DNA of 64,000 nt, taken from positions 11,108,673-11,172,672 of the forward strand of contig CM033115.1 of assembly GCA_019321725.1 (NCBI GenBank), read 5' to 3'. The stretch is from Paulownia fortunei (lineage: Eukaryota > Streptophyta > Magnoliopsida > Lamiales > Paulowniaceae). The first letter of the stretch is position 1. Each line of letters opens with the position of its first letter. Below, one piece after another: positions 12,003 through 57,560 of the stretch. The position numbers were made by a program, and so were the translations under genes. Below the pieces are notes generated by a model. It was not told the origin of the DNA and made no database searches. It saw nothing but the letters and a program-made list of their open reading frames with translations.

Positions 12003-12722
12003 TCATCGATAATACCCTACTAATCCTAAGAAACTCCTTACTTTTGATACATTTGTTGGTGTTGACCACTTAATGACAGCTTCTACCTTGCTCGAATCAA
12101 TAGAAATACCATCATTTGATACTACATAACCTAGGAATACCACTTGTTCAAGCCAAAACTCATACTTCTTGAATTTAGCATACAACTGTTTTTCTTTAAG
12201 AACTTGTAGCACAATCTTCAAATGTTCTTTGTGCTCTTCTTTATCTCGTGAGTAAATTAGAATGTCATCAATAAACACAATAATAAATTTATCGAGATAT
12301 TGCTTGAGCACCCTATTCATTAGATCCATAAAAGCTGTGGGGGCATTGGTTAAACCAAAAGGCATCACTAGGAATTCATAATATACATACCTTGTTCGAA
12401 ATGCAGTCTTGGGTATGTCTTCTTCCTTGATCTTCAATTGATGATACCCAGAGCGCAAATCAATCTTAGAAAACATCGATGCTCCCTGCAATTGATCAAA
12501 CAAATCATCTATTCTTGGAAGTAGATACTTATTCTTTACTGTTACTTTATTCAGCTCTCTATAATCAATGCACAACCGCAATGTACCATTCTTCTTTTTC
12601 ACGAACAACACAGGTGCTCGCCAAGGAGAATAACTAGGGTGAATAAAACTCTTATCAAACAATTCTTGCAATTGAACTTTTAACTTTTTTAATTCTGTTG
12701 GTGCCATTTGGTATAACATCAA
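12003..12722 (-). pseudogene. gypsy reverse transcriptase, uninterrupted
   Basis: A continuous 239-codon frame covers fingers, palm and thumb: [38 protein letters not shown] (first catalytic Asp), [38 protein letters not shown] (FIDD at 12275-12264) and [12 protein letters not shown]. All catalytic residues are present. It is the best preserved protein segment in the window, but it is cut off from protease (frame change near 12720) and RNase H (stop), so the element's polyprotein cannot be made whole. Confidence 0.93.
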
Positions 12723-34535: not shown

Positions 34536-34562
34536 CTAGTAACTAACGCATGCGTTGCACGT
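34536..34562 (-). other. Helitron 3' terminus: palindrome plus CTAG
   Basis: Minus strand: GTGCAACGCATGCGTTAGTT then ACTAG. AACGCATGCGTT (34545-34556) is a perfect 12-bp palindrome able to form the short 3' hairpin that ends rolling-circle transposition; CTAG is 34539-34536. The next base is T. Confidence 0.75.
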
Positions 34563-35029
34563 AATTCATATGATTCTAGTAAATTAATTATATTATTTAA
34601 TAATTTATTTGAGTAAAATTAAGATATTATAAGATTTTCATAAATAAACATTATTAGATAAAAATATAATCAATAAAATATAAAATATTCTAAAATATTT
34701 TGTAAACTAATTATTGATAGATATGATTTGCAACAAAATAAGACACTCTTCTAGCTAATATTTTCTAGACGATACTTGCTTTTTAGAGATTGAAAATTGA
34801 ATGCTGGAATTTTTTTCACATGACATAATTGTTAAGTATCATAACTTTGTTTTACAATGAATCCTACTTTAATGTTGTGTATTCATAATGAAAATAAAAT
34901 ATTAGTTACTATTAATAATATATAATATATTACTAAGGAAAAAATATTTATACATGCACTTAAAATTTATTTGTACACAATATTCTTAGTCCGCATCTTT
35001 CCTCTTACATTTGAAGTGCTTAGTTTAAT

Positions 35030-36560
35030 CAATATTTTGATTATAGACATTGAACTTCCTGTGGAGAGAGTAACATACAATTAGTCATGAGAAGATACTA
35101 AATGAGGCAAATGGACATCAACATCTGAAATTATTTGTTCTTGAGCTTTTTTATAGTCATGACAAAGCAAAGTTTAATATGAAATTATTTACATATAAAT
35201 ATACAATCTCTGCATCATTTTATATTATTCTTGAAGTCCTACATACCATTCTTGTACTATTACACAATCCATTTGACTGGTCCAAATTTCTCAAAAAAAT
35301 TGTTAGATAATTTTTTTATCAGCACCAACTTATGAGGATGCAAGTCATTTAGAGTTAAAGAGTTTAAAACATTATCTTTATAATAGTTATTTGTGTCATC
35401 AATAGTTTCACCAAAACTGTTCAAAGTTTTTGTTTTTTGAGGAAATATAAAGATCAACTTATTATTCAATTTATCAATGTGCTCATTTTTAGCGACTAAT
35501 ATTACTCGGTTTGTCATGTAATGAGTTTAGTGAGCATTCTTATTTAAGGTTCGGAAATAACCCTAATAAATCGTAATATTAAGTTTTCCTCATTGTCATA
35601 CTTGATAATCATGTTTTCTGAAATTTTGATGTTGCATTTAGTATTACTTGGTTCCTCACTATTTCTAACTCTAAGTAAGAACTCACCGAAGTTTTGATCA
35701 TTCCTCGACTCATATTCCTTGATAAAGTATTTTTTTTTATTTTGGGCCACAAATATGATTTCATCAAACTTGAAAAAATGGTTTAATAGATTGTTGCGCT
35801 AGGAACAACTAGTAATATTTGTCTAAAATCTCCAAAAAAATTATTACTTTTCCACCAAAATCCTCAAGAGCGCTTCCACGTGGTAGAACCTCCTCAAAAA
35901 ATATAAGTTTTTTCATGAGGTTGATCTTGAGCCACCATCCAAGCATGAATACCTTGGTTTAATAGAATATTTTTGGTGTAGAAATTTTCAAATTCTGGAT
36001 CTTTCGTTGTGCGAATTTCCTAAGAAATAAAGTCATTGGCAAATAGGTTCAGGGTCAAACCGACTACTCTAAGAGCACTCATCCATAAATCGGTTACTGG
36101 TACAAATAACATAGAGAAATGTAACCAATGTTTATTGGAAAAAGGCCCTAAGATTTGGGACCAAAAGTGGTCAGCAATGACCATGGAATAATTTTCTTCA
36201 GCTTGAGTTAGGTTAAAAGTACGGAATCTTGATAGCCCATTGTTTCGCAATCGGTATTTTATCCATAAAATAGTTATTCTTTATACAATGGCTCTACAAC
36301 CCCACTTTGTTTGAACATAGTTTACTTACAAGGTTTATTTACATCTATTGGTATTTTAAAGCGAGAATGTGTTTTTCTACCCCTTGGTATTATTGCGGTA
36401 GCAACTTTATACATCACAGGTACAAATGCTATTAGAATTTTGGATCTAAGATGAGCTAATAATGCATAGTATAAAAACCTTTTTTGTGTTCTGTCTGACC
36501 TATCAATAAAGAAACTATTGCCCATTTGTATGCAATCTAAGATCATTGAAAAAGCTTTTT
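35030..36560 (-). pseudogene. Helitron PIF1-like helicase, broken, with plastid DNA inserted
   Basis: Minus-strand order: FFIDRSDRTQKRFLYYALLA (Walker A region, usual GGTGKT lost), [33 protein letters not shown], then a 361-bp psbD insert (36226-35866), then EDFGGKVIIF and GDFRQILLVV (motif III area, about 35865-35800), NFGEFLLRVRNSEEPSNT (35750-35544 frame), VILVAKNEHIDKLNNKLI and SFGETIDDTNNYY (35517-35260 frame), and LYVTLSTGSSMS near 35090-35050 (motif VI, ALSRG). Stops and frameshifts throughout; the helicase text missing at the insert includes the segment between motif II and motif III. Confidence 0.88.
35866..36226 (-). pseudogene. psbD: chloroplast psbD fragment (photosystem II D2 C-terminus)
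   Basis: Minus strand encodes [79 protein letters not shown] and [11 protein letters not shown], ending EEVLPRGSAL. This matches the last third (about 117 residues) of the D2 reaction-centre protein up to its final codon, minus the stop. Nucleotide text such as 'gaggttctaccacgtgga' is plastid-like. Several missense changes and a small indel near the end (PHEKTYIF) show decay. It is a nuclear plastid-DNA fragment lying inside the Helitron helicase, not a gene that can work. Confidence 0.93.
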
Positions 36561-37240
36561 ACTGTTCAAAATTCAACTTTAGTTGTGCTCCATACTTTTT
36601 CAGATGTATTTTTATTGACATTTTATCTTGTATCTCTTGAAAAATTATTGTTCATTTTATCTATATCAATATGAATGTTTGGAAAATCATATGAACTAAT
36701 GTTTTTTTCCATGCTCTCCAAGAAAAAAAATCAAACTTTTCAAAGTTTTGGCAACTTATAATTTAACTGAAGTTTCTAATTCTCTTTTGAAATATTCAGA
36801 CATTGCCTCAAAGATCTCACATTTGTTGGTAAACAATATACACCCTTATAGACTCCATGATAAATTTTAGGCTGTTCAACCAGATATTTGACAATAACAA
36901 TGAAAGTAGAGCTAGCAGTATCATGTCCTCCAATAAGCAAACCTATTGATTACATTTTGTTTTTCCAATTTGACATATTGATGTATATCTATAACTTCGA
37001 AATCATGCAGTTAAGGTATACAAATGATGATACTTACAATTTCTATAATTTTATATTTTTTGGTAATTTATTAATTAAAAATATAAATAAACTTGAGAAA
37101 AAAAAGATGAATTGAAATTAACATGAAAAAATTAAGTATTTCAAAGAAATATAAATTAAGGTATTAAAAAAAATTATAGTTGGCATTGCAACAAAGCAAG
37201 GAACTCTTTTTCAACTCACACTTTATAAGCGACATTTGTT
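36561..37240 (-). other. Helitron internal region, unassigned
   Basis: Upstream side of the helicase. A few phrases ([16 protein letters not shown] near 36800) might be RepHel remnants, but I cannot place a Rep domain. The plus-strand frame 36888-37115 is unsupported. Confidence 0.35.
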
Positions 37241-37244
37241 CCTC

Positions 37245-37520
37245 AGAGATTGAAGAAATTTGGCAAATCGAAATTGAAAAAAAAAAAATTAGTTTGATTT
37301 ATGATTTTTATTTTCATAAAAATTTGGTATTCAATTTGATTTTAATTTTTTATTCTAATTTATTGCACTATATTGATATCAAATTTAATTTTTACAAATT
37401 TTATAAATAATTTTTATAACTTATTTTATATTTATTAAATTAATTTTATACTTTTTTTCTTGTTTTTAACTTATCAAACTAAAATTAATAAATTCAAAAT
37501 ATAATTAAATTTTGTTAAGA
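37245..37520 (+). repeat. Helitron 5'-region unit, copy D (partial)
   Basis: 'aaatcgaaattgaaaaaa', 'tttattttcataaaaatttg', 'gtattcaatttgattttaat' and 'tataaataatttttata' match the same phrases in 48890-49150 and 49520-49700 in the same orientation. Confidence 0.6.
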
Positions 37521-38133
37521 AATGAAAATAAAGAAGAAATTGAGCAAAAAATATTCTTAACTTTAAAATACTGTAATAATATATATACATATATAATATT
37601 TTATCTCTTCGATTACCTTAAAACTTTTAGGGTTAATTTTATTTTACCCTTTACACTCTTAAAAATGCTCTAATTATTTATTAATTCTATAATTTATTCA
37701 ATAGAAAATTATATAAAAAGATCAAGAAATACACAAGTAAATGTAGTACAAAAATTTTTTCTACTTAATGTAATATATATATATATATATATTTAAAATA
37801 CTTATGAATATGGTGATACAATATGAAGGCTCATACAACTTATTTTTGTTATGCTTGATTTTGTAGAAAAAAATTTAGGCTTTGTTTGGTTTCATTTGTA
37901 GTCATTTTGAGGAGAGTGTTCTACAAAATGAGTTTGGAAAATGTGAATGAAAATTTATTTGTTTTGTTGGGACAAATGATATGATGTATTTTGGAAGATA
38001 TTTTCAACTGTAGATGTTTTATCAATATTATTTTGTTGTGGTTAATAAGAGACATTTTCAATTGTAGATGTCTTGTCATTATTATTTTGTGTAATTAGTG
38101 ACAGTATAGTAGGGTATAATATAAAATTCAGAT
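37521..38133. other. AT-rich Helitron interior with (AT)n
   Basis: No gene seen. A (AT) dinucleotide run occupies 37773-37793. 'gatattttcaactgtagatg' near 37998 is repeated as 'gacattttcaattgtagatg' near 38050. Confidence 0.5.
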
Positions 38134-38302
38134 CTTGGTGGCTGCAGAAAGCAAATGTTAAAGGAACCAAATATTTTATTAATAGATGTAATTATTAATT
38201 ATATCTCCCAAGTACAGAAAGATACACTTTAGTTTCATAATTCAGGGAGGTCTTCCAAATTTAGTCCCATGGTCCAGAAAAGATCTAACATTAGTCATGA
38301 AT
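38134..38302. repeat. left arm of a ~168-bp inverted repeat
   Basis: Its reverse complement ('attcatgactaatgtt', 'ggaccatgggactaaa', 'gaagacctccct', 'aactaaagtgtat', 'tttaacatttgctttctg') matches 48258-48425 on the plus strand. The two arms enclose the unit-C copy into which the LTR element inserted. Confidence 0.75.
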
Positions 38303-38489
38303 GCACTTTAATATATAAATTTTGCTCTATTCTATTTTTTTAGAAAATAGAATAATTAAACTTATAAATACGACAGTGGAATGTGCCTTTGAATTGTACA
38401 AAAAGTTGATTTTATTTCCACATTAATTTTACAAAATCTAATTAGATTGGATATTGTGAAGTATATTTGGTTTATTTAAATAGACTTAT
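38303..38489 (+). repeat. Helitron 5'-region unit, copy C, left part
   Basis: Runs to 'gtttatttaaatagacttat' and continues after the LTR element at 47512 ('cttatttcataatatactaa'). Unit B at 48700-48800 has the uninterrupted version. Confidence 0.75.
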
Positions 38490-41182
38490 TGTAATAGCCA
38501 AACCTCACACTACTCACTTGGCCAATACGATTCATGCATTACATGCTAATTTTATATGTTACTTGCATTTCTATTGACATTGCATAATTTATTTCATTTT
38601 ATACGACATTCTTGAATATTAAACTTAATTTTGTAGTTCTTGCATGATATTAGTTATTGAATTTCCTAATTTAAGTAGTTGATTTTATATTGAAATAAGA
38701 AGAAAATGAGGTTGATCAATATTAGATATAGATAAGATATAAAAGTTGTAATTTTGGAAGTGTTAAAAGTGTTACTAGTAAGAAATTAAATGAACGACTA
38801 GAAAATTAGCTTATGAATTATCTATGGTATCTTGTGGTAATTAAAATAGGATGTAATTAAATTAATGTATAGTAACACACATCTGATCCAGGCTTGAAAG
38901 ATAGATGAAATGTCAGATTTATACCACAACCTACCACCTCATGCTTGCTACCAAACTTAAGCAAGCACCTCAAGTGCCACCTCAAACTTTCTTTCACTCT
39001 TAGCCATTTACCCATGACCCTCAACCATTTTCAGTCATTTTTAGGATCCAAACTCATGTCAAAATCTCTCTAAGTTGGTCCTAATTAATTCCAAGTGATA
39101 GAAAAGGGCAAATGAAGCAGTAATCACAAGTAGAAGGTGAAACTGGCATAGGTAAGGTTCATATACAATTTTTACATCAATTTTTATATTATTTGAGGGT
39201 TTTGTGATTTCTTAAGATTCTTATCTTGTTCATAGGTTATTCATAGGGTTATTATGCACAAAAATGATGATGTTATAGGTTATTCATAGAGTTATTATGC
39301 ATAAAAAAATGATTTGTGGTTGCAAATCATTTTAGTTATTATGCATAATTCATAAAGAGATGCTCATAACTGTCTTCATCGAATTTTAGATTTTGTCCTA
39401 TATAAAGGGGACTGCTTTTACAGCATTAGATCTATTATTTTTTACAATAATATGACATGGTTGTCTCTTTGTATATGTTATCTAAGTGTGTTGAAAATTT
39501 AGGAGTGATTGGATATACTTAAGGGTGTCAAAACCATTAATGTCATGAAGTGTGTAAAACTATCACGGTAGAAAAAATATATTTCAGTATGTTGTGAAGG
39601 GAGCTGAACTTGGAAGGCTATATCCGTGATTTTTAGTCATTATGTGACATGGTTACATTATTTTTGATGTTATATAAGTATGATAAAAATTGGGGAGTGA
39701 ATGAATATGTTTAAGGGTGTCAAAATCATCATGCAAATTAATGTGGTAGCAAGAAAATATGAAGTTGTGAATCTATTCCATTTGGTTCATTAACATGGTC
39801 AAGCATAGAAGTGGTGCATTTGATCCCTAACAATTAGAAAAATGTCATAAGAGTTATAATACATCAATTAAGTGAGGTTAGTATATATTTAAGATGTGGA
39901 ACAAAGGTGCGTAGAAGGTTGTATTCGGTTATAGTTTCTAAGTGGTAAGGTTGTTTAGTTAAATTGAGATTCAAGATCTTTATACTATATTAGGTATAGT
40001 GAATTTGTTAATTGACGATGGTGATTGATATCTTGTATTCTTACTGACTATTCCACATCTAGGGTTGGGGAGTAATACTTAAGAAACCTAAAAGTAACAC
40101 ACAACTGATCAAAGGTAAGTAAAGATTCATTTGCAAGTAGAATGTATAGACATAGTAAATATATGATTTATATGTAATATCATAGATGATATGTGCATTG
40201 CAGAGGGCACGCATTACTGTCATTCATGTTCATTGAGCATACATACATGGGACTTAGCATGTGCATGCATCATATACGAGCATTGTGATAAATTTGGCAT
40301 TACACGGCATGATTCTGAGAAAAAAAATATTTTGCTGACCACTACTAGTGCACTGAAGCATGCATGGATTTGCATGGTTGTATGCATGGATTTGCAGGTT
40401 TGTGTGCATGGATTTGCATATGTATAAGTATGCATGGATTTGCATGCTTATATCATTATTAGCCATTGGATTATGGTGGTGTGCAGAGCTCTTTTTCGGT
40501 GCATAGGATAGTTGAATTGGTCAGGGGCCCAAGAAAGAAACGATTTTGAGAGAAATATTTTGATACATGGAATTGCATTGTGGGCATAGCATTTTGAGAT
40601 GCATGACTTGATATTGTGGATTATTCTTTGACATGCATAATTTTTACTTGCTAAGCATTAACTCATATAGATATGCATTGTAGATAAGTCTGGTGATACT
40701 TGATACCATGGACTTGTTGGGCAAGCCGTTGGGTTTCCTATGGGTTTTGAGGATCAGTGTACATGGATGATGACCTGTTGGGTTGTATTGTAGGTATATT
40801 CTAATTTTTACAATCATTATTATTGTGTATATATAAAAGGTTACATGATGCAAAATATCCTTGTTTCTTCCAAAAGTATAGGCTATTATTTTGATTTTTG
40901 AGTTTATCGTATTATAAATTTGGGATGTCGTGTCCTATATAACTCTTGAAATTTTATACTAAATCAGTTTAGAATAGCGTGACTGTAATGGGTGTTGTGT
41001 TTTTTTATATAAACTGTGATTTTTCTATACATAAGGTTATATGTAAGAAAACACTTTTACTGTTTTTTTTAAAGTGTTACAGTTGACAAAAAAAATTATA
41101 TATATACATATGTACACACATGTGCTACCTTGTCAAAATTATTATTATATCAATATCTATATTTAGTAGTTGGGGTATTATA
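38490..41182 (+). repeat. 5' LTR (2693 bp)
   Basis: Begins TGTAATAGCCAAACCTCAC and ends GGGGTATTATA (CA mutated to TA). Relative to the 3' LTR it lacks ~180 bp after 'gttactagtaag' (near 38783) and a second stretch near 39320. Contains the TGCATGGATTTGCATG tandem block at 40358-40455. All small frames inside (40191-40853) are non-genic. Confidence 0.92.
40358..40455 (+). repeat. variable tandem block of TGCATGGATTTGCA in the LTR
   Basis: About four copies of '(g)tatgcatggatttgcat' follow each other here; the 3' LTR (46697-46765) has about three and the solo LTR (54598-54648, minus) about two. Each unit carries CATGCA, the RY core motif known from plant seed-gene promoters. A regulatory role is only a possibility. 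Confidence 0.65.
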
Positions 41183-44519: not shown

Positions 44520-47511
44520 TGTAATAGTCAAACCTCACACTACTCACTTGGCCAATATGATTAATGCATGACATGCTAATTTTATATACTACTTGCATTT
44601 CTATTGACATTGCATAATTTATTTTATTTTATACGATATTCTTAAATATTAAACATAATTTTGTAGCTCTTGCACGATATTAGTTATTAAATTTCCTAAT
44701 TTAAGTAGTTGATTTTATATTAAAATAAGAATAAAATGAGGTTGATCAATATTGAATATAGATAGGATATATAGGTTGTAATTTTGGAAGTATTAAAAGC
44801 GTTACTAGTAAGTTTATACGGTTTGATTCGATTTCATCCATATATTTCAAAAATATATATGGATAAATTGCATATTTGGGATATTGGACATAAGATACTA
44901 TGATTGAAAGGAGATATTACAATATTCATTTATGTATAATATTATATAATTTTTAAAATGGATAATTATTCAAGAATCGAGTGACAATCGGGTAAGAAAT
45001 TAAATGAACGGTTAGGAAATTAGCTTATGAATTATCGATGGTATCTTGTACTAATTAAAATAGGATTCAATAAAATTAATGTATAGTAACACACATCTGA
45101 TCTAGGCTTGAAAGATAGGTGAGAGGTCAGATTTATACCACAACCTACCATATCATGCTTGCTACCAAGTTTAAGCAAGCACCTCAAGTGCCACCTCAAG
45201 CTTTCTTTCACTTTTAGCCATTTACCCACAACCCTCAACCATTTTTAGTCATTTTCAGGGTCCAAACTCATGTCAAAATCTGTCTAAGCTGATTCCAAGT
45301 GATAGAAAAGGGCAAAGGAAGCAAAAGGAAGTAGTAATCACAAGTAGAAGCTGAATCTGGCATATGTGAGGTTCATATACAATTTTTACATCAATTTTTA
45401 TATTATTTGAGGGTTTTGTGATTTCTTAAGATTCTTATCTTATTCATGAGGATGTAATAGGTTATTCATAAGGTTATTATGCATAAAAGAATGATTTGTG
45501 GTTGCAAACACATAGTAGAACCACTAAGATACAGAATCTATCTATATGTTGATTTCTAGTTTATTGAGCTTAAAATCTTCAAGAAACCTTGGGTAAATTC
45601 TATATTTATCATCATGAATATTTTTATATAGGAGTTAAGATTATGTATTTAGGTTTGGATAGCATGGAAATTAAAATGTGGCATGACAATCAAAGAGATG
45701 CTTAGAACTGTTTCCATCGAATTTTAAATTTTGTCCTATGTGAAGGGTACTGGTTTTATAGTATTAGATCCATTATTTTTGGCAATAATATGACATGGTT
45801 GTCTTTTTGTATATGTTATCTAAGTGTGGTGAAAATTTGGAAGTAAGGGAATATACTTAAGGGTGCCAAAACCATTAATGTCTTGAAGTGCGTAAAACTG
45901 TCACGGTAGAAAAAATCTGTTTCAGTATGCTGTGAAGGGAGCTGAACTTGCAAGGCTATATCCGTGAGTTTTAGTCATTATGTCACATGGTTACATTTTT
46001 TTTTTATATTATATAAGTGTGATAAAAATTGGGGAGTGAATGAGTATATTTAAGGGTGTCAAAATCATCATGCAAATTAATATGGCAGCAAGAAAATGTG
46101 AAATTGTGAATTTATTCCATTTGGTTCATTAACATGGTCAAGCATAGAAGTGGTGCATTTGATCCCTAACATTTAGAAAAATATCGTAAGAGTTATAATA
46201 CATCAATTAAGTGAGGTTAGTATATATTTAAGATGTGGAACAAAGGTGCGTAGAATGTTGTATTCGGTTATAGTTTCTAAGTGGTAAGGTTGTTTAGTTA
46301 AATTGAAATTCAAGATCTTTATACTATATTAGGTATAGTGAACTTGTTAATTGACGATGGTGATTGATATCTTGTATTCTTACTGATTATTTCACATCTA
46401 GAGTTGGGGAGTAATACTTAAAAAACCTAGAAGTAACACACAATCGATCAAAGGTAAGTAAAGATTCATTTGCAAATAGAATGCATAGACATAGTAAATA
46501 TATGATTTATATGTAATATCATAGACGATATGTGCATTGCAGAGGGCACGCATTACTGTCATTCATGTTCATTGAGCATACATACATGGGACTTAGCATG
46601 TGCATGCATCATATACGAGCATTGTGATAAATCTGGCATTGCACGACATGATTCTGAGAAAAAAAAATATTTTGTTGACCACTACTAATGCACCGAAGCA
46701 TGCATGGATTTACATGGTTATATGCATGGATTTGCATGTGTTTAAGTATGCATGAATTTGCATGCTTATATTATTATTGACCATTGGATTATAGCGGTGT
46801 TCAGAGCTCTTTTCCGTGCATAGGATAGTAGCATTAGTCAGGGGCCTAAGAAAGAAATAATTTTGAGAGAAATATTTTGATGCATGGAATTGCATTGTGT
46901 GCATAGTATTTTGAATGCATGACTTGATATTGTGGATTATTCTTTGACATGCATAATCTTTACTTATTGAGCATTAGCTCATATAGTTTATGCATTGTAG
47001 GTGAGTTTGGAGATACTTGATACCATGGACTTGTTGGGTAAGCCTTTGGGTTTCCTACAAGTTCTGAGGATCAATATACATGGATGATGACCTGTTGGGT
47101 TGTGTTGTAGGCATATTCTAATTTTTACAATCATTATTATTGTATAAATTATTGTGTATATATAAAGGGTTACAAGATGTAAAATATCCTTACTTCTTCC
47201 GAAAGTATATACTATTATTTTATTTTTGAGTCTATCGTATTATAACTTTGGAATGTCGTGTCCTATATAACTCTTGAAATTTTATAATAAATATGTTGAG
47301 AATAGCGTGACTGTGATGGGTGTTGTGTTTTTTTTATATAAACAGTGATTTTTTTTATATATAGGGTTATATGTAAGAAAATACTTTTACTGTTTTTTTA
47401 ATATGCTACAGTTGATAAAAAAAATTATATATATACACATGTACATACATGTGCTAACTTGTCAAAATTATTGTTATATCAATATTTATATTTAGTGGTG
47501 GGGGTGTTACA
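44520..47511 (+). repeat. 3' LTR (2992 bp)
   Basis: Begins TGTAATAGTCAAACCTCAC and ends GGGGTGTTACA. Alignable with 38490-41182 over its length except for ~180 bp at about 44812-44992 and ~140 bp near 45510-45690 that the 5' LTR lacks. The solo LTR 53860-56798 has the first extra segment, so the 5' LTR suffered the deletion. Confidence 0.92.
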
Positions 47512-48257
47512 CTTATTTCATAATATACTAATTTTCATATTAAATCTAGTGTGACATATTTTTTTCTATTATAGTTCAATCAATTTCAGTATAACTTTTT
47601 TTATAGGGGTGACCATAGTTTGATAAACCGATGGAATCAAATTGAAACTAAAAAATTTGGTATGTACCAAAGTCAAACAAAAAAATTCAATTTTGTATTT
47701 GATTTTTACTTTCTTAAAAATTTGGCATTCGATTTGTTTTTGATTTTTTATTTTGGTTTATCAAATTATACCTATAATCACATTTTAATTTTATAATTTT
47801 TATAAATAATTTTTATATTTTTAATTAATTTATACATTTTTTTTCTTATTCTTTACTTACCAGAATAAAAATAATTAATTCAAAATACAATTAGATTTTG
47901 TTATTTAAATTTGAACTATTTAATATTTTTATTTTTTAAAAAAATTATTTAACAAAATTATTAAATCAAAATATGAATACATAAATGAATACAAAAGAAG
48001 ATAAAAGGTAAAATAGTTATAAATATAATTTTCACACATGACACGTGTTTTGGAAAGATCAAACAAATAAAAATAGAGTTTGCCTTAAACTCATAGTGTT
48101 ATCTTCTTGTAATTATTCTAGAACCTCCTTAACCAATTAAATAAATAAGCATTATTTGTTTCAAAATTAAATAATTACTAAATTACATAACTACCATCAA
48201 AATTAATAATATTAAAAGAGTATTATAGTCGAATCAAAAATTAAAAGAAACATTAAT
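47512..48257 (+). repeat. Helitron 5'-region unit, copy C, right part
   Basis: Continues copy C after the LTR element. Shares 'ataggggtgaccatagt', 'gatggaatcaaat', 'accaaagtcaaacaaaaaaa' and 'gacacgtgttttggaaagat' with copies B and A. Its Helitron terminus (TATAATAGTATAGA) is missing and replaced by the inverted-repeat arm at 48258. Confidence 0.75.
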
Positions 48258-48425
48258 ATTCATGACTAATATTGAATCTTTTTGGGACCATGGGACTAAA
48301 CTTGCAAGACCTCCCTCAACTATAAGACTAAAGTGTATTTTCCTATATTTGAGAGATACAAAAATAATTACATCAATTGATAGAATATTTGATTCGTTTA
48401 ACATTTGTTTTCTCAAGCTACCCAT
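48258..48425. repeat. right arm of the ~168-bp inverted repeat
   Basis: Reverse complement of 38134-38302 with scattered changes. The plus-strand frame 48262-48552 and minus frame 48234-48425 overlap it and are not genes. Confidence 0.75.
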
Positions 48426-48559
48426 ATCTGAATTTTATATCATTTGTCAATTTGTTAATTGCTTCCGAAAACTTGTGAAAAATATATTTATAAATACTTT
48501 ACCTTTTATTTTCTCTTTTGTCCATTTATATATACATATTACTATTCAATGATTTTGTT

Positions 48560-48710
48560 AAATGAATTTTTAAAAATAAATAAATAACAAAATCTAATTG
48601 TATTTTAAATTTATTATTTTTAGTTTGGTAAGTTAAAAATAAGAAAATAGGTATGAAACTAATTAATAAATATAAAATAAAATATAACTATTATTTATAA
48701 AATTTTATAT
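48560..48710 (-). repeat. inverted fragment of the Helitron 5' unit
   Basis: Its reverse complement ('ttttataaataatagttata', 'cttatttttaacttaccaaa', 'ctaaaaataataaatttaaa', 'atacaattagattttgttat') matches 49030-49160 of copy B, so 48.56-49.16 kb could fold into a long hairpin. Confidence 0.65.
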
Positions 48711-49519
48711 AATTAGATTGAATATTGTGAGGTATATTTAGTTTATTTAAATAGACTTATTTCACAATAAACTAATTTTCATAATAAATCTAGTGTGTCA
48801 TATCTTGTTCTTTTCTAATCCAATCAATTTCAGTGTGACTTTTCATTATAGGGGTGACCATAGTTCGATACACAGATGGAATCAAATCGAAACTGAAAAA
48901 TTCAATATGCACCAAAGTCGAACAAAAAAATTCAATTTGATATTTGATTTTTACTTTCATAAACATTTAGTATTCGGTTTGATTTTAATTTTTTATTTTA
49001 GTTTATCAAATATACCGAAAATCACATTTTAATTTTTTCAATTTTTATAAATAATTTTTATATATTTAATTAATTTATACTTTTTTTTCTTATTCTTTAC
49101 TTACCAGACTAAAAATAATAAATTTAAAATACAATTAGATTTTATTATTTAAATTTGAACTATTTAATATTTTTAATTTTTTAAAAAAATTATTTAACAA
49201 AATTATTGAATCAAATATGAATATATAAATGGACACAAAAGAAAAATAAAAGATAAAGTAGTTATGAATATAATTTTCACACGACACGTGTTTTGAAAAG
49301 ATCAAACAAATGAAAATAGAGTTTGTCTTGGACTCTTAGTGTTCTCATATTGTAATTATTCTAGAACCTCATTAACCAATTAAATAAACAAGTATTATTT
49401 ATTCTAAAATTTCATAATTACTAAATTACATAACTACCATCAAAATTAATAATATTAAAAGGGTATTTCAGTCGAATCAAAATTTATAAGAAATATTCAT
49501 ACTTTTATAATAGTATAGA
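48711..49519 (+). repeat. Helitron 5'-region unit, copy B, with its own 5' terminus
   Basis: Contains the empty site of the LTR insertion (about 48730-48800) and ends 'acttttataatagtatag' + A at 49519, i.e. a Helitron 5' TC end on the minus strand. 48901-49519 is repeated as copy A (49521-50141). Confidence 0.75.
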
Positions 49520-50141
49520 TTCAATATGTACCAAAGTCGAACAAAAAAATTCAATTTGGTATTTGATTTACTTTCATAAAAATTCAGCATTCGGTTTGAT
49601 TTTAATTTTTTATTTTGGTTTATCAAACTATACCGAAAATCACATTTTAATTTTTATAATTTTTATAAATAATTTTTATATATTTAATTAATTTATACTT
49701 TTTATTCTTATTCTTTACTTATTAGACTAAAAATAATTAATTCAAAATACAATTAGATTTTATAATTTAAATTTGAACCATTTAATATTTTTAATTTTTT
49801 TTAAAAAAATATTTAACAAAATTATTGAATCAAATATGAATATATATAAATGGACACAAAAGAAAATAAAAGATAAATTAGTTATGAATATAATTTTCAC
49901 ACATGACACGTGTTTTGGAAAGATCAAACAAATGAAAATAGAGTTTATCTAGGACTCTTAGTATTTTCATCTTGTAATTATTGTAGAACCTCATTAACCA
50001 ATTAAATAAATAAGCATTATTTATTCTAAAATTTCATAATTACTAAATTAAATAACTACCATCAAAATTAATAATATTAAAAGGGTATTTTAGTCGAATC
50101 AGAATTTAAAAAAAACATTCATATTTTTATAATAGTATAGA
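49520..50141 (+). repeat. Helitron 5'-region unit, copy A, carrying the outer 5' terminus
   Basis: About 620 bp, starts 'tcaatatgtaccaaagtcga' and ends 'tatttttataatagtatag' + A at 50141. Follows copy B head to tail with no spacer. Confidence 0.78.
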
Positions 50142-50142
50142 T

Positions 50143-50975: not shown

Positions 50976-51494
50976 TTACAAATAATCAGAATCAGTTGAT
51001 AACAAACTGAAAACAAGAACATCCTGAATGTTGCCTTTGAGATAAAAGTACTTTCTCAGCAATCCCTCCTTTGTGAATCCAGCTTTCTCCAACACTCTCT
51101 GTGAGGCCTTATTCTCCACATTAGCAAAAGCCTGCAGCCTTAATACTTCAGGGAAGTCCTTAAACACCTCAGGAATGGCCATTTTGACTGCTCTAGTAGT
51201 GATCCCTTGTCCCCAGTATTCTACTGCTATTGCATAGCCCATGTCGGCTCGACACCTGTCGTCTCCGGACCCCGGAAACACGCCCACGAAACCAATGGAA
51301 CGATTATCGATGCATATTGATCGTCGCCAAGGGTGGGGTATGCAAACTTGTTCAATGAAAGTCAAGGCCTCCTCTTTGGATGTCAAAGTTTTCCATCTTC
51401 CTGACCTTGTCACTCGATCGTCGCCCGCCCACTTTAGCAAATCGTCTGCGTCCCATAGCTTGAAAGGGCGCAAAGTAATGCACGATGGATCCAT
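50976..51494 (-). CDS. GNAT-family N-acetyltransferase (RimJ/RimL-type)
   Basis: Intact single-exon frame of 172 codons, minus strand. GNAT enzymes move an acetyl group from acetyl-CoA to an amine. Residues: MDPSCITLRPFKLWDADDLL (strand 1 and helix 1), RSICIDNRSIGFVGV, then MGYAIAVEYWGQGITTRAVK holding the acetyl-CoA loop G-Q-G-I (Q/RxxGxG/A form), and ANVENKASQRVLEKAGFTKE-GLLRKYF near the C-terminus (typical Acetyltransf_3 end). Length fits the small plant clade of RimJ-like proteins. The coding part is clearly GC-richer than its flanks. ATG at 51494 is the first Met and matches the family's start. Substrate unknown; probably cytosolic or nuclear, as no targeting peptide is evident. The overlapping plus-strand frame 51241-51513 is a shadow. 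Confidence 0.93.
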   Translation of the reverse strand: MDPSCITLRPFKLWDADDLLKWAGDDRVTRSGRWKTLTSKEEALTFIEQVCIPHPWRRSICIDNRSIGFVGVFPGSGDDRCRADMGYAIAVEYWGQGITTRAVKMAIPEVFKDFPEVLRLQAFANVENKASQRVLEKAGFTKEGLLRKYFYLKGNIQDVLVFSLLSTDSDYL

Positions 51495-52582
51495 TGATAT
51501 ATTGTTGATATAATCACTTCTGCAAAAATTTGATCAGTTCTCTCTTGTATTTTGATGAGGATTTTATTTAGTCTTGTGGACAATGTTGGAAGGTTTCTTA
51601 ATACAGTGGACATAAGAAATAAGTAATTTTTTATTTTTTTTTAGGATATGGTTTATGTGAAAAGTTGTATTTTTATTTTTTTTTCTCATAATGGAAGATA
51701 AAATAAAAGATGTAGGGTTAGTCCATGGATGGATGTACTGGGGGGTTAAGAGGGACTTGGGCCCTTCACGATTTGGTATATCATATTTATTTTATTTTCT
51801 GTGGTTCGTTGTACCATAAAGTCCAATTTCTCTATCTCATGCTCAAGAAATGTGGGACTATTCCATGATTTGATCAGGGTTGGGGTGAAGGGAATTTTGG
51901 CCTTGGTTAGATCAAGATTTGGCAGATCTTATATAAGTCCACAAACTTGTGCACTTGCGTAGATGGTTAGATCAAACAATTATATTATACAAGATAACAC
52001 AATAAGTGTTTCGCTATTAGCATGATACTAATTTTGATATGAAAGTACCTAATGCAGATAATAATTTTTCATTTTTTAAGTTGATTTTATATCAACTGAT
52101 AGAAGTCAAAATTTGTGTCCAATTCATGTTTTTTTTTTTTTGTTTGTTAAATTATAATGTTTTAATAGTCTCGGAGCACAAGATTTAGTGCTTTATTGTT
52201 TTTCCAAGGCATGATGTAGAGAAGAATGATGGGCATACAAATTCCGCAAATTCCGACTTGAATTTGTAAAGGTTAAAATATCATACACTTGATTTCTCTA
52301 TCTTACGCTAAAGAAAATACACTTAAAACTAAGCAAATTAAAAATTGCCCAAAAAATATAGTTTACTTGTTTGCAACTCTGCTTCTTAAATGTTTGATTT
52401 CATTTAATACACAGCTAAAGAATAGGTTGGATTACAGATAAAATTTGTTATATCGTGCACCCGTACGACAAACTTTTGTTGTGGTTTGTTTATGTTTCAG
52501 TAACTGAGAGTAAGTTTGATTACACTTTTATATCTTGTATGTCGAAATAAATAAAGTAGATTGAATTTCTATATATAGTTAA
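51495..52582. other. upstream region of the acetyltransferase gene, intergenic
   Basis: Minus-strand ACTAAATAAAATCC (about 51580-51565) is a weak TATA candidate about 75 bases from the ATG. The rest to the copia LTR is AT-rich with a T-run at 52129-52141 and no recognised gene. Confidence 0.45.
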
Positions 52583-53859: not shown

Positions 53860-56798
53860 TGTAACACCCCCCAACACTAAATATAGATATTGGTATTGCA
53901 ATAATTTTGATAATATAGCACATGTGTATGCATGTGTGTATATATATATTTACGTTTATCAAATGTAGCATATTAAGAAACAGTATTTTCACACATATAA
54001 CCCTTTATATAGAAAAATCACCATTTATACAAAAATACAACACTCATCACAGTCACGCTATTCTCAAGTTGATTTACTATCAAAATTTAAGAGTTATATA
54101 GGACACGACATCCCAAAGTTATAATACGAGAGACTCAAAAATAAAAATAATAGTCTTTACTTTCGGAAGAAGTAAGGACATTTTGCATCTTGTAGCCCTT
54201 TATGTATAGTCAGCAATTTACGTAATAATAATGAATATAAAAATTAGAATATGTCCGCAACACAACCCAACAGGTCGTCATTCATGTATACTGATCCTCA
54301 GAACCTGTAAGAACCCCAACAGCTTGCCCAGTAAGTCCATAGTATCAAGTATCACCAGCCTCACCTAAAATGCATAAACTATATGAGCTAACGCTAAGCA
54401 AATAAAGATTATACATGTCAAAGAATAATCAATAATATCAAGTCATGCATCTCAAAATGCTATGCCCACAATGTAATTCCATACATCAAAATATTTCTCT
54501 CAAAATTATTTCTTTCTTGGACCCCTGACCAATGCTACTATCCTATGTACCGGAAAAGAGCTCTGCATAATGCCATAATCCAATGGCCAATAATTATAAA
54601 AGCATGCAAATCCATGCACATTCGTACGCATGCAAATCCATGCATGCTTCGGTGCACTAGTAGTGGTCAGTAAAATATTTCTCTTTCTCAAAATTATAAT
54701 GTGCAATGCAAGATTTATCACAATGCTCGTATATAATGCATGCACGTGTCAATGATAATGCCCATGTATGTATGCTCAATTGAGAGCCCTCTACTATGCA
54801 CATATAATTTATGATATTACATATAATTCACACATTTACTATGTCTATGCATTGTAGTTGCAAATGAATCTTTACTTACCTTTGATCGGTTGTGTGTTAC
54901 TTCTAGGTTTCTTAAATATTACTCCCTAACCCTAGATGTGAAACAATCTATAAAAATACAAGATATCAATCACCATATTCAATTAACAAGTTCATTATAC
55001 CTAATATAGTATAAAGATCTTGAATCTTAATTTAACTAAACAACCTCACCACTTAGAAACTATAATCAAATACAACCTTCTACGTACCTTTGTTCCACAT
55101 CTTAAATATATACTAACTTCACTTAATTGATGTATTATAACTCTTACAACATTTTCCTAAATATTAGGGATCAAATGCACCACATCTATGCTGGAACATG
55201 TTAATGAACTAAATGGGACAGATTCACCACTTCACATTTTCTTACTGCCACATTAATTTGCATGATGATTTTGACACCTTTAGACATATTCATTCACTCC
55301 ACAATTTTTATCACACTTATATAACATCAAAAAAAATGTAACCATATCATAGAATGGCTAAAACTCATGGATATAGCTTCCCCAGTTCAACTACTTTCAC
55401 AGCATACTAAAACAGATTTTTCCTACCGTAACAGTTTTACGCACTTCATGACATTAATGGTTTTGGCACCCTTAAGTCTATTCAATCATTCTTAAATTTT
55501 CACCACACTTATATAACATATAAAAAGAGATAATCAGGTCATATCCTTGCCAAAACTAATGGATTTAATATTGTAAAACTAGTCCACTTCACATAGGACA
55601 GAATTTAAAATTCAATAGTGATGGTTTTGAGCATCTCTTTATCATGCCCTATTTCAATTTCTAACCGATGAAAATTTATTCAATACTCTTAATACATATA
55701 TAAACATGTATGTGATGATAATTACAGGTTTTATTCAACATATCATACACTTTTGAAGTCTAAAATACAAGAAAACAGTAAAGTGACAGTTTCTGCCACA
55801 AATATTTCCTATTAAGTGTTTGTCAATAAAAACCTTTTTTTTGTGCACCAAAGTCTAACTAAAAACTTCCTAACACTTTTATAAGAGATATTGAAAGCTT
55901 AATAAACAATAAAACCATTTAGAATAATCTGAAAACCAAAGGCAAATTCGTAGATAAGTGTTACTAATGCAGATTTTGAGGTTAAACTTGATGGTAATCA
56001 CTTCTCCTTTGCTTTTCTTGCTTTTATTTCAACTTGGAATCAATTTGGAGCACTTGGACACCTTAAGGTGTGTGTTTGAAAGATGAAAATGGCTGAAATG
56101 AAGGTCTGGTCATGGCTTAAGGGTGAAGGGTTTGAGGTGTTAGCTTGAGATATTAGTTTAAGTTTAATAAGAAAGCATGAGGTGGCAAAGCTTGAGGTGG
56201 CATATAATGGTATAATCTGATTTTCTCCCTTATCTTGCAGACCTAATCTTGTGTGTCTCATATATTCTTATTTGGTTGCAACTATCTTAGTCACCATTCA
56301 TTTCCATAGGTAATTCCTATGTTCGTTCATTCGATCTCCAAATCGATTAACATCCGATTCTTAAATGATTGTCTAGTTTGCATTTCTAAAATCATATGCA
56401 TATATGGATCTTGTATTATGACACTTAAATCACATTATATCATGTCCAATATTCCAAGTATATTAATCCATGGATGTATACTTTTAAAATACCTTGACCT
56501 AATTAAATCGAATCATATAAACTTACTAGTAACACCTTTAACACTTCCAAAATTATAACATATAACCTATGAATATCCAATATATCAACCAATCTATTCT
56601 TTTTCTTATTTAAATATAGAATTTCTTAATTAGGTTATAAGATGTCAACTACTTATATCATGTGATAGCATTAGAGGTCTAATAATTAAGAATGCTATAT
56701 AAGATGCCATGTAAATATTAATGCAAATTAGTATATAAGTAGCATGTAATGCATTAATCACATTGGTCAAGTGAGTTGTGAGAGGTTAGGGTATCACA
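53860..56798 (-). repeat. solo LTR (2939 bp) with perfect target duplication CCCCA
   Basis: Plus-strand ends TGTAACACCCC ... GGTATCACA. Flanking CCCCA occurs at 53855-53859 and 56799-56803. It aligns in reverse with the LTRs of 38490-47511. No internal element sequence, so it formed by recombination between the two LTRs of a full insertion. Frames inside (54506-54745, 56040-56261, 56319-56558) are not genes. Confidence 0.93.
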
Positions 56799-56803
56799 CC
56801 CCA

Positions 56804-57560
56804 CCCCCTCACCACACAAATATTCCATCATGGTGACCTTGAACCCATAATTGTGACTCAAGCCATCAAAGTTCCTAAGTTGTATCAGTCCATGTTTGAT
56901 GAATATGGTGCTCTAGTTTGGAATAGCACTTTAGGACTTGTTCCCCCTTATCCTACTTACAATTTAGTTGGATGCAAGTGGATTTTTCACACTAAACATT
57001 TACCTCAAGGTTCCATTGATAGGTATAAAGCTCGCTTACTTGTCAAAGGATTTCATCAGTGCCCTAGCATTGATTATCATGATACATTCAATCCCATCGT
57101 CAAACCTACCAGTGTTCGCCTTATCTTTAACCTTGTTGTCAGTCGTGGTTGGTCTTTTCACCAACTCGATGTCAATAATGATTTTCTCCAGGGTACTCTC
57201 TCTTTACGATGGTATCTTTATCATCCAACCCCTATGTTTTCTTGACCAAGATTATCCCTACCATGTTTGTAAGCTTCGCTAGGCTCTCTGTAGATTGAAA
57301 CAGGCTCCTCATGATTGGTATCAATGAGTTATGCCACTTTCTCGTCAATGTTGGCTTTATTAATTCTAATACCGACACATCCCCATTTGTCCTCCACCAT
57401 GGTGATATATTCATCTATCTTCTGGTTTATGTTGATAATATTATCATTATAGGGAGTAGTGATGATGTTGTTCACCATTTCATCTGATTGTTGGCCCAAA
57501 GTTTTTCCTTGAAAGATTTGGGTCCACTACACTTTCTCAGGGTTGAGGTTACTCCCTATC
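56804..57560 (+). pseudogene. copia reverse transcriptase
   Basis: The frame 56853-57245 reads NLVGCKWIFHTKHLPQGSID, RYKARLLVKGFHQCPSIDY, FNPIVKPTSVRLIFNLVVS and HQLDVNNDFLQGTL (first catalytic Asp), then breaks. Downstream frames give LCRLKQAPHDWY, LVYVDNIIII (YVDD box changed to YVDN, about 57425-57450) and LKDLGPLHFL-like text. A catalytic Asp is lost. Confidence 0.88.

Follow-up and report, generated by a model that had tools for sequence, protein, structure and literature searches.

Plastid-derived sequences in nuclear chromosomes (NUPTs) are commonly found near transposons, with no single preferred kind of transposon according to one source (PMC12572781). In papaya, an rps15 NUPT was multiplied 23 times, and co-amplification with nearby Ty3-gypsy elements was proposed for it (PMC7037861). 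Proximity has been the basis for proposing that transposons multiply plastid DNA in the nucleus. Moreover, Helitrons are described as capturing fragments of host genes at internal breaks, following a filler DNA model, in PMC6544945, where a TC, a CTRR and a hairpin are named as features of these elements.

The locus described here, found in a window of 64,000 nucleotides (the whole stretch of Paulownia fortunei DNA that was analysed), shares traits with each of these systems. As in NUPTs, plastid DNA lies in a nuclear chromosome and has decayed mainly through C to T and G to A changes; unlike them, it is located inside a transposon, has been copied with it and has borders fixed in all copies. 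As for the papaya rps15 NUPT, a plastid piece became multiplied in the nucleus, and a transposon is proposed to have caused this. However, the papaya retrotransposon is placed within 1.5 kb of the insert, whereas the present plastid piece is enclosed by a Helitron and the empty site can be compared. Finally, the Helitron filler DNA capture likewise involves a fragment acquired within the element, break repair and subsequent amplification, although the fragment is of plastid origin here and not a nuclear gene. Plastid DNA within a Helitron was not described in the titles and abstract openings searched, a scope that does not show its absence from print. The psbD case joins two known processes, NUPT formation and Helitron fragment capture, in a combination that we have not seen described. 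The features of the locus were as follows:

38116 to 38490, minus strand: further upstream sequence of the family; between it and 38122 lies an internal deletion of about 430 bp when compared with the copy L083.
34536 to 38122, minus strand: stretch homologous to full-length psbD-less relatives; the family extends further upstream.
36228 to 36860, minus strand: decayed PIF1-type helicase (PF05970) before the insert, running from Walker A to shortly beyond motif II; upper limit set by eye.
35866 to 36227, minus strand: 3′ end of plastid psbD (362 bp), D2 residues about 232–352, with indels and one in-frame stop.
35000 to 35865, minus strand: decayed continuation of this helicase past the insert, ..EDFGGKV through the 2B domain (PF05970 positions 137–215, PF21530).
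34540 to 34562, minus strand: 3′ terminal hairpin region, which folds in family ends and is eroded in the window copy.
34536 to 34539, minus strand: Helitron 3′ terminal CTAG, followed on the minus strand by T; homology between copies ends here.

To begin with, the minus-strand reading of 36226–35866 (120 residues, two frames joined across one indel, with X at the sole stop) matched the D2 (psbD) chains of the PDB through their last residue, with a best E-value of 3e-56. The earlier note had assigned the C-terminus of D2 to these positions, had the fragment stopping at the last sense codon of psbD with the stop codon absent, and had named as a refutation a search showing that the segment is not psbD; the match bore out this reading, except that the start was moved to 36227, one base before the border given, by DNA comparison with an assumed psbD reference. 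This DNA reference was not that of the P. fortunei plastid, and we take it to represent the gene, as it translates to a protein agreeing with plant D2. The window belongs to contig C11 of the 509-Mb genome, and psbD is found as plastid-derived sequence within a contig of 23 Mb.

On both sides of psbD, the PIF1-type helicase that had been read from the sequence alone was confirmed by Pfam, with matches to PF05970 (PIF1) at positions 1–98 before the insert (E-value 6.6e-13) and 137–215 after it (E-value 4.4e-12), together with PF21530, as found in the Helitron kind of helicase. Furthermore, the Helitron_like_N domain was also present in two out of 79 relatives among the matches listed (P0137 and P0148). 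The helicase sequence between motifs II and III had been supposed lost; some of it is missing, but only about 39 bp (13 codons), since the helicase could be followed past motif II (frame 0) up to the join. About 77 bases present in most of the fetched copies are also missing from the window copy at 35199/35200, and stops and frame shifts were found throughout the helicase–psbD–helicase stretch, which therefore represents a decayed copy. Upstream of the helicase, a cytochrome P450-like fragment (36846–36960, minus strand), presumably of the CYP716 kind, was observed in family copies with and without psbD. Against Pfam p450, it gave E-values of 6.8e-05 for L028 and 0.012 for the window copy, and both scores fell slightly short of the curated cut-off. 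As it appears in many copies of the family, its capture seems to have preceded that of psbD.

A total of 14 matches to the psbD segment were found in the genome, of which the best eight were fetched; helicase adjoined psbD in seven of these (L001–L007) and was absent beside L008. A search with the assumed psbD reference added L019, which was a partial second copy beside L004, as well as L015–L018 and L020–L022, none of which had a match to the helicase flanks, while three short C2 matches were left out. The helicase–psbD join is therefore not unique, as seven copies with helicase, psbD and helicase are present in the genome. The right junction was at the same place in all seven, and the left junction was common to the six copies retaining it, with L005 being one base shorter; L007 had lost both its left join and its 3′ end and was counted through the right join alone. 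Independent psbD pieces of the genome extended beyond the borders of the insert, to the left in L008 and L016 and to the right in L015 and L017. An assembly error, in which plastid reads were joined to a nuclear transposon, had been raised as a possibility in the earlier note. However, the seven copies are spread over three contigs of chromosome size and present the same junctions, their psbD has decayed as its flanks have, and a misjoin cannot yield seven diverged copies with one junction pair, so that this explanation is excluded in practice.

Helitron copies with and without the insert, for which a search had been asked, were retrieved with the two helicase flanks; these yielded 401 and 403 candidates, and 40 from each set were scored. 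Among the resulting 46 distinct loci, seven matched psbD and 39 did not. The empty site measured 38–41 bp in 31 of the 35 psbD-less loci having both sides, and exactly 39 bp in 23 of them; other gap lengths were found in the remaining four (60 bp in L074, 123 in L073, 170 in L036 and 1,348 in L049), although L036 showed the usual empty site on direct reading. The 16 empty sites that were compared in sequence were alike apart from point changes. Judged by these sites, 362 bp of psbD have evidently replaced about 39 bp of helicase. The overlap was of one base at most at each join (by eye and with assumed donor flanks), whereas short border homology would be expected under the filler DNA model of PMC6544945. 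A swap of about 39 bp for psbD with so little overlap fits end joining with filler DNA. In L004 (C12, 14.33 Mb), the end of the helicase and the first 48 bases of psbD are present twice in tandem, and this partial copy thus reflects a rearrangement later than the capture.

The relationship between copies was analysed in a tree of 39 copies and 1,676 columns built without the psbD part, from which seven of the 46 loci were excluded because parts of them were short or absent (L038, L043, L049, L052, L070, L075 and L082). The seven psbD copies were split from the 32 others with a support of 86/75 (SH-aLRT/UFBoot), and their mean identity was 0.894 among themselves, compared to 0.844 between them and the others. 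The copies carrying psbD thus form one clade, with modest support. This clade, together with the shared junctions, speaks for psbD having been inserted once, and a single insertion is therefore favoured.

The sequences beyond the element were compared on the 3′ side, over 165–636 bp, in the six copies reaching the 3′ region; L007 was not counted among the insertion sites, its 3′ end being lost. Right after the Helitron 3′ end, the flanks of L001, L005, L006 and the group L002–L004 were mutually unrelated, and these four unrelated flanks therefore represent at least four insertion sites. The earlier guess that psbD was mobilised with later copies is upheld by the seven copies, their shared junctions and these flanks. 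As an alternative, the psbD copies might have been multiplied by segmental duplication and not by transposition, a reading to which the 96–98.5% likeness of the 3′ flanks of L002, L003 and L004 would lend itself, as would the identity of L002 and L003 over 1,238 bp upstream. Nevertheless, the unrelated sequence following the 3′ end in L001, L005, L006 and the L002–L004 group makes it improbable as an account of the seven copies; L002–L004 look like one insertion later duplicated on contig C12. L002 and L003 (C12, 7.71 and 7.53 Mb) are oppositely oriented with 180 kb between them, and they differ by 4% in the helicase part in spite of their identical upstream sequence, a pattern for which recent conversion, a partial inverted duplication or a matter of the assembly are possible explanations.

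The state of psbD when captured was approached through the changes common to the copies. All of them differed from the assumed psbD reference at ten sites, all silent, nine being at codon position 3 and one being a silent leucine change. In contrast, the 64 changes found in single copies were spread over the three codon positions (23, 22 and 19; Fisher P = 0.0005), while 46 intermediate sites were distributed as 16, 16 and 14. In six other genomic psbD pieces, 23 of 26 sites showed the same silent states, and most of the ten common states are likely to be the plastid's own. As the common changes are silent and are matched in other psbD pieces, the captured piece was probably fresh plastid sequence. 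This bears on a different order of events, in which an ordinary nuclear plastid insert came first and was then picked up by the Helitron from nuclear DNA through template switching during transposition. Helitrons do capture nuclear fragments and other psbD pieces are present in the genome, but the common changes, being all silent, reveal no prior nuclear decay, an argument that does not touch a very young insert; we regard this order as unlikely, though it is the most serious competitor to a direct capture of plastid DNA. Leaving aside the ten common sites, the copies differed from psbD by 7.4–12.0% (220 out of 2,398 sites), and 146 of these 220 later changes were C to T or G to A, in counts that are not independent given that L002–L004 are near-duplicates. 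All the psbD copies have decayed since their spread. With a neutral rate taken as near 7e-9 per site and year, this divergence would correspond to an age on the scale of ten million years.

Regarding the vehicle, a CTRR followed by T was found within 12 nt of the end of homology in 32 of the 38 copies reaching the 3′ region (chance of 0.076 per copy), and a looser count taking the nearest match in 100 bases gave 34 out of 38 (chance of 0.22 per copy). This Helitron 3′ end reads CTAG in the window copy and CTAC in L006. Furthermore, a hairpin preceding the 3′ end folded in all four family ends (z from −2.3 to −3.6), 11–12 nt before CTAG, while that of the window copy is eroded and does not fold (z of 0.85). 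Position 38122 was rejected as a candidate 5′ terminus, as other copies continue upstream; neither the 5′ end of the family nor its TC terminus was found in the compared copies, in which the family continues upstream. Three more pieces of upstream family sequence, without helicase, were observed at 47514–50142 of the window.

The Rep domain (PF14214) had 63 matches in the genome, none of them lying inside the window or closer than 500 kb to any of the seven psbD copies, and no Rep (HUH) joined to the helicase was found, as an autonomous Helitron would have. Open frames were nearly absent: none of 42 copies was open over 450 bp after the site, and only two of 38 were open before it (L040 and L075). 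The family is therefore read as a non-autonomous Helitron. A one-base deletion in motif II was considered as proof that the family was dead before the capture and was rejected: among 43 upstream pieces, 18 had the short form TTATGGATAAAA, while further forms also occur and 11 fitted none of the tested patterns. The right join is in frame (ALEDFGGK), as a working chimeric helicase–D2 protein would have it. However, the helicase frame reaches a TAA five codons past the left join, and this stop, the closed frames and the lack of Rep make the in-frame join inconsequential, leaving such a protein a negligible chance. Organelle DNA had been said to be patched into a transposon gene, of which it holds that plastid DNA replaces part of the helicase, but no gene was usefully patched. 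The window locus is a real, old and non-functional chimera.

Other features were observed in the window. A long repeat in three copies (38490–41180, 44520–47509 and 53869–55642), 82–92% alike and with one copy inverted, adjoins the Helitron at 38490, and no coding sequence was recognised in it. An intact-looking GNAT acetyltransferase gene (50976–51533, minus strand) was closest to those of other Lamiales, its closest named relatives among the matches listed being from Sesamum (85 and 82%) and Handroanthus (82%). Moreover, reverse transcriptase-like open frames of the gypsy and copia kind (by eye) were found at 12003–12722 (minus strand) and 56790–57245 (plus strand).

Taken as a whole, it is very probable that a single repair event enclosed plastid DNA in a non-autonomous Helitron, whose copies were then spread by transposition. 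One such element would have suffered a double-strand break within its dead helicase gene, and end joining would have repaired it, with the loss of about 39 bp and, as the junctions suggest, the sealing in of the 362-bp psbD piece as filler. The element would have retained its 3′ end and was probably moved by a Rep–helicase protein made elsewhere. As the common junctions and the differing 3′ flanks show, its copies brought the psbD piece to at least four sites, one of which seems to have been duplicated later on C12.

In the present case, the element itself contains the plastid piece, its empty site has been defined with nearly single-base precision and the junctions are common to copies at four or more sites. 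On balance, we lean towards Helitrons taking up plastid DNA directly at their own breaks and spreading it, so that some of the transfers surveyed as separate may be copies of one transfer. Such cases could be detected by searching for plastid inserts having both borders in common with a transposon family, and copying of this kind can inflate the counts of plastid inserts and their age spectra.
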